Shown here: positions 22,592-25,829 of the stretch, in pieces | Layout of the letters: each line of letters opens with the position of its first letter | How positions within the stretch are numbered: position 1 is the first letter of the stretch | NCBI RefSeq assembly: GCF_004153545.1 | Contig: NZ_SDVA01000017.1 | Coordinates: 1 to 61,394 of the forward strand | Origin: Serinicoccus sediminis | GTDB lineage: Bacteria > Actinomycetota > Actinomycetes > Actinomycetales > Dermatophilaceae | Direction: 5' to 3' | Length of the DNA stretch: 61,394 nucleotides | Position numbers and translations under genes: made by a program | The notes under the pieces: model-generated | Database searches by the model: none | Told to the model about the DNA's origin: nothing | Seen by the model: the letters and a program-made list of their open reading frames with translations, nothing else

Positions 22592-22726
22592 CGTCGACCT
22601 CCTGCGGTGGGATGGGGTCCTGATCGTCCCAAACCGTCGACCGCGTGTCCTGTCGGCGACGACCAGTCGTCGGGTTCAGACCGGCCTACGAGCCGCTCCG
22701 GTATGGTCTCGGCCGAGGGAGGGGTC
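22592..22726. promoter_or_regulatory. Divergent promoter region of acyl-CoA ligase and lipoprotein pair
   Basis: On the plus strand TATGGT at 22702-22707 is a plausible -10 box, with transcription expected to start near 22714. I see no other clear element. Confidence 0.35.
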
Positions 22727-22813
22727 GTGCCACGGGTCGACATCGACGCCACGAGGGGGGCCGCGCCCGGTCCGCTGGGCGGCAGCTTCGGTCAGGGAGG
22801 GGAACCCGCGTGA
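22727..22813 (+). CDS. Possible 28-aa leader ORF coupled to the lipoprotein
   Basis: A GTG at 22727 is preceded by GAGGGAGGGG with 2-12 bases spacing and lies about 13 bases after the predicted transcription start. The frame encodes VPRVDIDATRGAAPGPLGGS... and stops with TGA at 22811-22813, which overlaps the GTG start of the lipoprotein at 22810 (GTGA). This geometry is typical of translational coupling. The peptide has no recognisable features, so it may be only a leader, or spurious. Confidence 0.3.
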   Translation: MPRVDIDATRGAAPGPLGGSFGQGGEPA

Positions 22814-23352
22814 GATTCCGGGGCTCGGTGCTGGCGCTCGCCGCGGTGACGCTGGCCGGGTGTCAGAACCCGGGCGGTCAGACCACCCCGGGAGGGTCTT
22901 TGACGACGGAGGGAACCAGCGTGAACGGACGCGCCGACGAGGCAGCGGCGCGGGAGCAGCAGCCCCGCGTGCGGGAGATCCTGCAGGACCTGTGGGACCA
23001 GTTCGACGTCGAGGAGAAGCCACCGTTGGAAGACAAGCCCGGAGAGGCGACCATCCGCGCATGCACGCTGGGCGGCCCGGCCAGGGTCTCGGCCTGGGCC
23101 GAGGGAACACAGCTACGCGTCGCGGAAGAGACGGACCCCGAGCTGGAGGCCGAGCAGGCGCAGCTCGTCCGCGCCTGGCTGGACGAGCACGGCTGGGAAC
23201 GCATCGACAACCCGGCCCCCGAGGGTGACCCGGTCACCTACCACCGGAACACCGATGGTTTCGTCGTGACCATCACCCCGTGGGGCGATGCGCGTGTCGA
23301 CCTCGACGTCCAGTCACCGTGCTTCGACGAGGAGGGACAGCGCGTCGGGTGA
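22810..23352 (+). CDS. Lipoprotein of unknown function, paralogue A (180 aa)
   Basis: The GTG start has AGGGAGGGG upstream. Residues 1-18 are a lipoprotein signal with lipobox LAGC (Cys18). The mature 163 residues are acidic: a Thr/Gly-rich linker, a helix-rich segment (RADEAAAREQQPRVREIL, then LQDLWDQFD), and a C-terminal half that contains AWAEGTQLRVAEETDPELEA, DEHGWERIDNPAPEGDP and FDEEGQRVG. Two Cys (ACTL and SPCFDE) could form a disulfide. The next gene is a paralogue with the same plan, joined by a GTGA overlap. I do not recognise the family; actinobacterial cell-surface lipoproteins of this size are often annotated only as hypothetical. Confidence 0.8.
   Translation: MRFRGSVLALAAVTLAGCQNPGGQTTPGGSLTTEGTSVNGRADEAAAREQQPRVREILQDLWDQFDVEEKPPLEDKPGEATIRACTLGGPARVSAWAEGTQLRVAEETDPELEAEQAQLVRAWLDEHGWERIDNPAPEGDPVTYHRNTDGFVVTITPWGDARVDLDVQSPCFDEEGQRVG
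22930..23007 (+). repeat. 78-bp perfect direct repeat, copy 1
   Basis: This segment of lipoprotein A is identical base for base to 23505-23582 in lipoprotein B (575 bp offset), while the flanking coding sequence has diverged clearly. It encodes the shared RADEAAAREQQPRV... helix. Confidence 0.9.
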
Positions 23353-23927
23353 TCCCTTCAGACCGGGCGCCAGGCGCTCGCCGCAGACGCTGCTCCACCA
23401 TCTCCATAACCATGGGGCTGATGGTGGGCAGCGTTGCCGGTTGCGCACTGCTCAGTGCCGACGACGCACGGGTCACCACCCCCGGTGGCGCCGTCGTGAC
23501 CGCGCGCGCCGACGAGGCAGCGGCGCGGGAGCAGCAGCCCCGCGTGCGGGAGATCCTGCAGGACCTGTGGGACCAGTTCGACCTGGCGGACAAGCCTGAG
23601 GTCGAGCAGCAGATGGCTCCGGGTGGTCTACGTGCCTGCACCCTGGACGTCACGTCCGACATCTCGGCCTGGGCCGAGTCAGCCCGGTTGCGCGTGTCGG
23701 AGGAGGAGAACCCGGAGCTGGAGGCCGAGCAGGCGCAGCTGGTCCGTGACTGGCTCGACGCGAACGGCTGGGAACGTCTCGACAACCCCGCACCCGACTC
23801 GAGCCCGGTGACGTACCACCGCGACGCGGACGGGTTCAAGGTCACCGTCGCACCGCAGCTGGACGCCCGGGTCAGTCTCGACGTCGAGTCGCCGTGCTTC
23901 GACGACCAGGGGCGTCAGGTGGGCTGA
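23349..23927 (+). CDS. Lipoprotein of unknown function, paralogue B (192 aa)
   Basis: The GTG at 23349 overlaps the stop of paralogue A (GTGA). The N-terminus is basic and rather long (VIPSDRAPGARRRRCSTISI), then a short hydrophobic stretch ends in lipobox VAGC (Cys32). The mature part follows paralogue A throughout: identical helix segment, then ACTLDVTSDISAWAESARLR, DANGWERLDNPAPDSSPVTY and SPCFDDQGRQVG. Both Cys are conserved. The pair is a tandem duplication and probably acts together at the cell surface. The function is unknown. It converges on the DNA ligase gene, whose stop is 23 bp away. Confidence 0.8.
   Translation: MIPSDRAPGARRRRCSTISITMGLMVGSVAGCALLSADDARVTTPGGAVVTARADEAAAREQQPRVREILQDLWDQFDLADKPEVEQQMAPGGLRACTLDVTSDISAWAESARLRVSEEENPELEAEQAQLVRDWLDANGWERLDNPAPDSSPVTYHRDADGFKVTVAPQLDARVSLDVESPCFDDQGRQVG
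23505..23582 (+). repeat. 78-bp perfect direct repeat, copy 2
   Basis: Identical to 22930-23007; see that entry. The repeat ends abruptly on both sides, which suggests recent gene conversion, or very strong constraint on this helix. Confidence 0.9.
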
Positions 23928-23950: not shown

Positions 23951-25471
23951 TCAGCGCAGCGCCTCGACCGTGTCGATCTCCTCGACGCCCTTGTCGTCGC
24001 GGTAGCGCAGGACCCGGGCGAAGCGCAGGGCGACGCCGCCGGCATACCTCCTCGACGTCTGCACCGCGTCGTAGGCGACCTCGACGACCTGCTCGGGCCG
24101 CACGTGCACGACGTGCCCCTCGCGCGACGTCTCCAGACCCAGGAAGCGCTCCGTCTGCCACGCGAGCAGCTCGTCGGTCATGCCCTTGAACGTCTTGCCG
24201 ACCATGACCGGCTCGCCGTCGGCGCCGCGGGCCGCGAGGTGGATGTTGGACAACCACCCCTGGCGGCGCCCGCTGCCCCACTCGACCGCGACGACGACGA
24301 GGTCGGCGGTGCGGCGCGGTTTGACCTTGACCCACCCGGCGCCGCGCCGGCCGGCGGCGTAGGGCGCCTGCGGGTCCTTGACGACGACGCCCTCGTGCCC
24401 CTGCCCGACCACCCGGTCGAAGAACTCCTGAGCCGCCCCCGGGTCGTCGGTGCTCACCCGCTCCACGACCAGCCCGGGCGCGAGGTCGCCGAGCGCCGCC
24501 CACCGTTCTGTCGCGGGCTCGTCCACGAGGTCGCGGCCGTCGAGGTGCAGCAGGTCGAAGAGGTATGTCGTCACCGGGGTCGTGCGGGCGAGCTCGGCCG
24601 GGTCGGTCCGCGAGGCGGTCCGGGCGCCGGTGACCTGGAACGGCTCCGGGCGGCCGTCTGGGCCGAGCACGATGACCTCGCCGTCGAGGACGGCTGACTG
24701 CGCGGCGAGCGCCGCGACCTCGTCGACCACCTCGGGGAGCCGGTCGGTGATCTCCTCCAGGCTGCGGGTGAACAGCCGCACCGGCTGCTCGGCGTCCCGG
24801 TCGAGGTGGGCCTGGATGCGGATGCCGTCGAGCTTGAGGTCGAGGGCCAGCTCACGCTCCCCGGTGACCGCAGCGGCGACGTCGGGCTCGGAGCCGGCCA
24901 GCATCGGCCGCAGCGGGCGCCCGACCTCCAGCCGGACCTCCTCCAGGGCTGCCGACCCGCCGGTCAGCGCGGCCCGGGCGACCGGCCCGGGGAAGCCGGC
25001 GAGCATCACGGCCCGGCGCACCAGGGCCTCCGGCACGTCCGCGGCGCGGGCGATGGCCGGCAGCAGCACGCCGTCGCCGGCCCCCTGGCGCAGCTCCCCG
25101 GTGAGCAGGCCCACGAGCCACTCCTGCTCCTGGGCGGTAGCCCGGCCGAGCAGGTCGCGCACGGCCGCCGCGCGGGTGGCTGTCGAGCCGGCGCCCGCGA
25201 GCTGCTTGAGGTCGCTCAGTGCCATGTCCACCTCCAGCACCGACAGCGACGGGGCCGCCGCGGGGTCCGGGAGGTCCCGTAGCGAGCGCCAGCCGACCCC
25301 GACCGTGCGCTGGGGCAGGGTGCCGGCGAGGTAGTCGGCGACCACCTCGACCTCGCGGGGCTCGCCACCGGACACGTCCGTGAGGGCCTGGGCGAGCAGG
25401 GTGGTCTTGTCGGTGCGCGAGCGGGTCGCGGCCACCGTGGCGGACGTCGAGGTCACCTCGGCCAGATGCAT
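23951..25471 (-). CDS. ATP-dependent DNA ligase, LigB type (506 aa)
   Basis: The nucleotidyltransferase motif I is LDLKLDGIRIQAH, with the adenylated Lys near residue 211. Motif III region VLDGEVIVLGPDGRPEPFQV, motif IV HEGVVVKDPQAPYAAGRRG and motif V WVKVKPRRTADLVVVAVEWG follow, then an OB-fold with GKTFKGMTDELLAWQ. An N-terminal ~200-residue DNA-binding region (LSDLKQLAGAGSTATRAAAV) matches the roughly 507-aa ligase of mycobacteria called LigB. It seals nicks in duplex DNA and is an accessory to the NAD-dependent LigA. I start at ATG 25471 (MHLAEVTSTS), consistent with family length. It is divergent from the structured RNA at 25600. Confidence 0.88.
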   Translation of the reverse strand: MHLAEVTSTSATVAATRSRTDKTTLLAQALTDVSGGEPREVEVVADYLAGTLPQRTVGVGWRSLRDLPDPAAAPSLSVLEVDMALSDLKQLAGAGSTATRAAAVRDLLGRATAQEQEWLVGLLTGELRQGAGDGVLLPAIARAADVPEALVRRAVMLAGFPGPVARAALTGGSAALEEVRLEVGRPLRPMLAGSEPDVAAAVTGERELALDLKLDGIRIQAHLDRDAEQPVRLFTRSLEEITDRLPEVVDEVAALAAQSAVLDGEVIVLGPDGRPEPFQVTGARTASRTDPAELARTTPVTTYLFDLLHLDGRDLVDEPATERWAALGDLAPGLVVERVSTDDPGAAQEFFDRVVGQGHEGVVVKDPQAPYAAGRRGAGWVKVKPRRTADLVVVAVEWGSGRRQGWLSNIHLAARGADGEPVMVGKTFKGMTDELLAWQTERFLGLETSREGHVVHVRPEQVVEVAYDAVQTSRRYAGGVALRFARVLRYRDDKGVEEIDTVEALR

Positions 25472-25534: not shown

Positions 25535-25566
25535 AGACTTGACCAAGTCTTGACCCGCAACATACC
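25535..25566 (+). promoter_or_regulatory. Dyad AGACTT-GACC-AAGTCT within a divergent promoter region
   Basis: The inverted repeat spans 25535-25550. TTGACC (25539-25544) with a 16-bp spacer to CATACC (25561-25566) is a fair sigma-A promoter toward the structured RNA. TAGCGT at 25588-25593 is an alternative -10 that would place the RNA 5' end at 25600. The dyad could be an operator; its protein is unknown. Confidence 0.4.
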
Positions 25567-25599
25567 CGCGCTTTGCCGGTCTCCGGTTAGCGTTGAGGC

Positions 25600-25765
25600 A
25601 TCGACCAGGCGTTGCGTCTCGGCACCTCCTGGTCGATCAGGCACAAAGGCAATGTGACGTGGTGGTGGGCACACCCCCCTGCGCGCCCGCCACGACCTCA
25701 TCGGAGGGGTTGCGTGCCTGGCGAGAAGGGCGCGTCGGCTGTCACGGGACCGACGCGCCCTTCCT
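25600..25765 (+). ncRNA. Candidate structured RNA with Trp-codon attenuator architecture and no downstream gene
   Basis: Elements in order: a perfect 10-bp stem ATCGACCAGG/CCTGGTCGAT (25600-25609 with 25628-25637), a closing stem CAGGCAC/GTGCCTG (25638-25644 with 25714-25720), and a 9-bp stem (one G-U) GTGGTGGGC/GCCCGCCAC (25662-25670 with 25685-25693) whose loop holds six C. Last comes a 13-bp terminator stem at 25726-25762. CGCGCCC (25682-25688) can alternatively pair with GGGCGCG (25728-25734), which would break both the third stem and the terminator. The 5' arm of the third stem encodes GTG-ACG-TGG-TGG-TGG-GCA-CAC, that is V-T-W-W-W-A-H, resembling the WWW leader peptides of Streptomyces trp attenuators as I remember them. 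Against this, the frame has no stop before the terminator, and no plus-strand gene follows for 2.6 kb. Confidence 0.5.
25726..25762 (+). terminator. 13-bp-stem terminator of the structured RNA
   Basis: AAGGGCGCGTCGG pairs perfectly with CCGACGCGCCCTT around an 11-base loop, followed by the mildly T-rich CCTTGTG. Confidence 0.7.
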
Positions 25766-25829
25766 TGTGCCCGGCCGTGCGGCCGCGAGCCCCCGGGCGG
25801 ATCAGGCCGAGGTGCGGGCGCGGCGGACT

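Follow-up and report, generated by a model that had tools for sequence, protein, structure and literature searches.

A stretch of about 165 nt on the plus strand of Serinicoccus sediminis contig NZ_SDVA01000017.1 (positions 25600-25765 of the 61,394 nucleotides analyzed, which are referred to as the window) is very probably, as judged from the sequence comparisons given below, a real, new and lineage-restricted small RNA (sRNA) gene. Its candidate product was named C-loop RNA. The explanation that we favor and consider likely is that of an independent, trans-acting sRNA gene that uses a C-rich loop in the way 6C/B11 does and that is confined to part of one genus. Action of C-loop RNA in trans is plausible by analogy.

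The locus is located between ligB (minus strand, 23951-25471), which scores above the cut-off of the ligase model PRK03180, and a PxpC-like gene (minus strand, from 25887), beyond which lies pxpA. The PxpC-like gene scores above the cut-off of TIGR00724 and reaches 161.6 bits with the PxpC equivalog model, which is below the cut-off of 500. Further away, at 22645-23927 of the window, two adjoining similar ORFs both contain RADEAAAREQQPRVREILQDLWDQFD and look like a tandem duplication. The minimum-energy fold of 25600-25770 (171 nt) has -98.6 kcal/mol, compared to -75.0 +/- 4.2 in 200 shuffles (z -5.6), none of which is as low as the native sequence. No Rfam family reached its gathering score in the window, and a tRNA search found none at the locus. 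A simple sigma-70 promoter scan and a terminator scan gave no match at the locus because it lacks a -35 consensus and has a weak U tract.

When 58 related genomes were searched with the DNA sequence, 18 gave matches, 15 of which are homologues, all of them from the genus of the window (Serinicoccus/Ornithinimicrobium). Three loci (L015-L017) proved on reading to be unrelated partial matches and were excluded from all counts; the diverged member L018 was retained. A covariance model (R1), which was built from L001-L009, matched the same 15 of the 31 genus genomes. It gave no match in 155 other genomes of the family and none in the remaining 16 genus genomes, with filters that lose some weak matches. 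Exact copies of the terminator were found in six stretches of named genome contigs, titled S. chungangensis, S. kebangsaanensis, uncultured Serinicoccus (two), Ornithinimicrobium pekingense, and "Acidobacteria MAG". The contig with the latter title, QEUR01000100.1 (L061), contains C-loop RNA; the title is probably a mislabel, and the contig probably belongs in the genus of the window.

The following parts of the gene were assigned, all on the plus strand:

25539-25577, plus strand: operator of four units, TTGACC / TTGACC / CATACC / TTTGCC, in 11-bp steps (from comparison)
25588-25593, plus strand: -10 element TAGCGT (TANNNT), 10 nt past the fourth unit
25600-25637, plus strand: 5' hairpin AUCGACCAGG/CCUGGUCGAU (from the fold; differs among species)
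25638-25720, plus strand: P2 stem, CAGGCAC (25638-25644) with GUGCCUG (25714-25720), enclosing the C-loop hairpin and a G-rich linker
25662-25693, plus strand: P3 hairpin with the loop ACACCCCCCUGCGC at 25671-25684, the proposed pairing site (from comparison and folds)
25702-25709, plus strand: G-rich linker CGGAGGGG (by eye)
25725-25763, plus strand: terminator hairpin GAAGGGCGCGUCGG-CUGUCACGGGA-CCGACGCGCCCUUC (from comparison)

Four operator units with 11-bp phasing occur in all 15 loci (best-scoring phase, 13-15 of 16 points in a score that is uncontrolled); examples across the loci are TTGACC, CTTACC, CATACC, and TTTGCC or TTGACC. The fourth unit is degenerate in L018. In all 15 loci, 10 nt separate this unit from the -10 element, which reads TAGCGT or TAACGT in 13 of them, TAGGCT in L011 and TACAGT in L018. 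Transcription would accordingly begin near 25598-25600. The motif C5-6UGC in the P3 loop is found in 14 of the 15 homologues; it is lost in L018 (genome G002), which retains the operator and the hairpin. In the minimum-energy folds, a hairpin loop leaves the C-run unpaired in eight of eleven folded members (exceptions are L008, L009, and L018). The linker position is G-rich in 13 of 15 loci, as judged by eye (not in L011; L018 is uncertain), and this linker could pair with the C-rich loop inside the same molecule. The terminator loop CUGUCACGGG is exactly conserved in 14 of 15 loci.

Compensatory changes that had been asked of the stems were seen in part, in P2 and in the terminator. Two of six P2 pairs differ in both bases when L001-L006 are compared with L007-L009. 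In the terminator, one pair is U-A in nine and C-G in six of the 15 loci, and another is A-U in 12 and G-C in three. The pairing of P2 and P3 was tested with L001-L009 only (eight distinct rows), because L010-L014 looked misaligned in this region. In this set, 96.3% of the cells are paired and 10 cells are changed on both sides; none of 500 shuffles was as high on either measure or in the covariation score, and slid control structures were paired to 33-48%. Four pairs show a double change, a number that 129 of 500 shuffles reach. The number of further pair types is 8, compared to 10.4 in the shuffles, 498 of 500 of which are as high. Two P3 pairs are broken in four of the eight sequences. A consensus fold of all 15 sequences contained the terminator and a four-pair helix only, and recovered neither P2 nor P3. 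P3 is therefore backed mainly by the single folds and by L001-L009.

A ligB match neighbors the RNA in 13 of 15 loci and a PxpC-like gene in seven of 15. In L013 and L014, which stem from two species, the whole unit including the operator is inverted relative to ligB and runs toward it; the 1.5-kb flanks of L010 and L011 contain no ligB. It follows that the unit is an independent gene, and a cis element or leader of ligB or pxpC was rejected because of the inverted and displaced loci. Of the marks of an independent, trans-acting sRNA gene, a conserved promoter and terminator of its own and independence from its neighbors were found. An initial annotation of this DNA had described a structured RNA on the plus strand that stands alone, has a promoter and a terminator of its own, and has no gene to attenuate; the conserved promoter and terminator and the inverted loci bear this out. 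The terminator had been given as a 13-bp hairpin: it is present, its stem is 14 bp long, and its U tract is weak. C-loop RNA is not named in the literature found on Serinicoccus small RNA or Ornithinimicrobium sRNA.

Among known RNAs, 6C/B11 (RF01066) is an actinobacterial sRNA that likewise has a C-rich hairpin loop, and its first loop contains the same CCCCCCUG. In mycobacteria, B11/6C is reported to repress by means of C-rich loops that pair with ribosome binding sites (PMC10470900); for C-loop RNA, pairing with G-rich ribosome binding sites is a proposal only. Unlike 6C, which has two C-rich loops, C-loop RNA has one, together with a large extra stem and a distinct terminator loop. The 6C model gave no match to C-loop RNA up to an E-value of 10, and the same genome has a separate true 6C at L053 5369-5439. 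Ms1 (RF02566) is a further actinobacterial sRNA, and its presence in Ornithinimicrobium has been reported on the basis of synteny (PMC9130861). Identity with Ms1 was rejected: C-loop RNA scores 11.8 bits with its model, compared to a gathering score of 162, and Ms1 is described as lying between genes for a HAD hydrolase and an oxidoreductase (PMC9130861), unlike C-loop RNA. Rfam matches to ftsZ-DE, Ms_AS-8 and an IRES were far below the gathering scores and were taken as chance.

The S. sediminis genome contains a second, unannotated RNA (C66:22431-22545, minus strand; L053 3933-4046), which is referred to as the sister RNA. Among 97 genomes scanned for exact copies of the hairpin CGGCUGUCACGGGNCCG, 14 genus genomes have two copies, 15 have one, and two have none; the hairpin was found in none of 66 genomes outside the genus, and the reversed control in none of the 97. 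The 14 genomes with two copies are those whose C-loop RNA has an intact terminator loop. The sister RNA folds into a three-way junction closed by UCGAC/GUCGA, which has the CUGUCACGGG hairpin as one arm and is followed by a terminator hairpin. This terminator covaries (10 of 30 consensus pairs with a double change among 25 sequences). A model of the sister RNA (R2) matched all 31 genus genomes and gave four weak matches (E 7.7e-4 to 7.6e-3) in two other genera; some genus genomes have weak second matches, several of which fall at the same position on the other strand. No Rfam family fits the sister RNA. Upstream of it, CTTTRMC-like units with 11-bp spacing score best as a pair in 22 of 25 loci, with a shift by one unit in the other three, according to a loose and uncontrolled score. 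A 6C RNA lies 1.1-1.3 kb from the sister RNA in six of the ten loci scanned; the 3 kb scanned in each of the other four, which have a different upstream gene, contain none. In all six cases the first 6C loop is AUCCCCCCCUG, which contains CCCCCCUG. One neighbor of the sister RNA is a Holin-X gene (PF07332). The other (L053 4204-5067) has no NCBIfam or Pfam match at E 1e-5; it is presumably similar to the 'oxidoreductase' found next to Ms1 elsewhere, and a positional link to Ms1 is possible.

The initial annotation had further proposed that the locus derives from a ribosome-mediated Trp attenuator, as an orphan or a relic, and would act in trans like rhizobial rnTrpL. The features on which this rested are present: three TGG codons (TGGTGGTGG, 25660-25668) in the 5' arm of a hairpin, the peptide WWWAHP in one frame, the TAGCGT element, and CGCGCCC at 25682-25688, whose exact complement GGGCGCG at 25728-25734 allows alternative pairing. 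Streptomyces and Corynebacterium are reported to carry classical attenuators, with two or three UGG codons in a row, upstream of their trp operons (PMC1262725); only L001-L005 resemble these in having a run of UGG codons within a hairpin ahead of a GC-rich terminator. TGGTGGTGG at the locus is not special within the window, where it occurs six times on both strands, compared to a shuffle mean of 0.71. A conserved TGG run, as an attenuator would demand, is seen in only five of 15 homologues, L001-L005, all of which are close relatives (84-100% identity); the others carry GGATGCGG, GCCGGCGG and the like at this position. The codons occupy the P3 5' arm and the two bases preceding it. Past the inferred transcription start, the Trp frame of L001 offers TTG and GTG and that of L004 only CTG; L002, with starts upstream only, L003 and L005 offer none. 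The missing stop before the terminator, which had been named as a weak point, holds for all five. The antiterminator strings are present in L001-L009, misplaced in L011, and absent from five of 15 homologues (L010, L012-L014, L018). None of the 15 homologues precedes trp genes, with neighbors other than ligB and the PxpC-like gene judged by eye: in all RNA-bearing genomes, trpB is located on another contig or more than 1.6 Mb away. Among the 31 genus genomes, trpB scores above the cut-off in 30; the exception, G009, has no R1 match. Reading upstream of the trpC-trpB-trpA locus of S. sediminis revealed no WWW leader with a terminator (a longer frame there contains SWWWVG internally), and a search of this genome for the leader pattern WWW-x-HP-stop gave no match. 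A lost operon is imaginable, given that the trpE model TIGR00564 stays below its cut-off in all 31 genus genomes; it does so also in nine of 14 control genomes, and absence of trpE from the genus is a suggestion only. In S. sediminis, TIGR00564 matches a PabB-like protein (above the cut-off for PabB), an isochorismate synthase-like protein (223.9 bits with a cut-off of 224.75), and another protein of the chorismate-binding kind. Sinorhizobium meliloti rnTrpL, as described, begins with the trpL ORF and derives from trpE attenuation (PMC7298713). It is a small RNA, and C-loop RNA would likewise act in trans; C-loop RNA differs in having no ORF, no trp gene nearby, and an operator of its own. The conserved parts of C-loop RNA, too, are different from those of an attenuator. 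Trp attenuator ancestry fails with respect to conservation, ORF, and neighbors; the proposal is largely refuted and very improbable.

The remaining alternatives differ in weight. That the hairpin is a mere terminator of the minus-strand PxpC-like gene, or a bidirectional one, with no RNA gene at all, would fit a near-perfect GC-rich inverted repeat about 120 nt past the stop of that gene. It is improbable, since the hairpin is kept in loci that have no PxpC match in their 1.5-kb flanks (L007-L010, L012-L014, L018), its loop, which is asymmetric, hardly varies, and the promoter and the C-loop are conserved alongside. Even less credible, and the least probable of the explanations considered, is a short translated ORF that starts at GTG 25714 and runs through the terminator. 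Its GTG follows GGAGGGG at a distance of 4 nt in L001, and the layout is similar in L010 and L012; against it, the frame into the terminator differs, by reading, between L010/L012 and L013/L014, CTG replaces GTG in L006, first-position codon changes in the terminator track base pairing, and the L001 frame lacks a stop close to the terminator. More serious, though still unlikely, is the idea that C-loop RNA mainly antagonizes the sister RNA or is antagonized by it, as a sponge, rather than targeting mRNAs. The CAGGGG loop of the sister terminator is a perfect complement over 6-9 nt to the C-loop region in all 14 genomes with both (G002 lacks the C-loop), in a comparison that is uncontrolled for chance, and the predicted duplexes have -12.9 to -19.9 kcal/mol; 11-bp-spaced units are present in both promoters. 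A C-run and a G-run match easily in a GC-rich genome, however, and the complementarity is uncontrolled by shuffling. Moreover, CAGGGG is retained in 25 of 25 aligned sister loci, including genomes that lack C-loop RNA. The sister RNA thus has another main partner, perhaps 6C.

The trans-acting sRNA that we favor can be pictured as follows. In a proposed model, which does not cover all sites, the box of the OmpR-type regulator GlnR from Streptomyces consists of two 11-nt direct repeats (PMC5826061), which makes an OmpR-type activator of C-loop RNA a fair inference. Such a response regulator would bind the four 11-bp units and switch on the RNA. The exposed loop ACCCCCCUGC would then pair with G-rich mRNA stretches at ribosome binding sites and cause repression, as 6C/B11 does in mycobacteria; this 6C-like action is suggested by analogy of the loop alone. 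Sequences like GCAGGGGG near start codons would be candidate targets of the C-rich loop. In the window, CAGGGGG shows no enrichment (19 found, 26.7 expected). A two-unit search with CTTTRMCAA in the S. sediminis genome gave eight sites with at most three mismatches, compared to two for the reversed pattern; the only exact site is that of the sister RNA, which had served as the source of the pattern. Two sites with three mismatches lie at the OmpR-type winged-helix gene P0001 (G000:C16:440611-441360; L069, L070), one inside the frame near the 5' end and one just past the 3' end. P0001 has a Trans_reg_C domain but lacks a receiver domain according to Pfam. It was not accepted as the regulator, because relatives of at least 67% identity are found in only three of 30 other genus genomes. 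Other weak 11-bp-repeat-like sites are located near sugar-transferase-like and glucanase-like genes (named by eye).

C-loop and sister RNAs may be partners by virtue of the CUGUCACGGG loop that both have and of the complementarity of the CAGGGG loop, either in target choice or as antagonists; in the latter case, the sister RNA may counteract C-loop RNAs. A circuit of three RNAs can be drawn tentatively, and we regard it as speculative: C-loop RNA and 6C share CCCCCCUG, the sister RNA exposes CAGGGG and shares the CUGUCACGGG hairpin, both new RNAs would answer to the same 11-bp-repeat regulator, and the sister RNA would titrate C-loop RNAs. As the present case shows, a TGG run can mimic an attenuator. 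The two RNAs, unannotated and strongly conserved, have one hairpin loop in common and are complementary in their second loops; they constitute a testable sRNA pair, and the operator may lead to its regulator.
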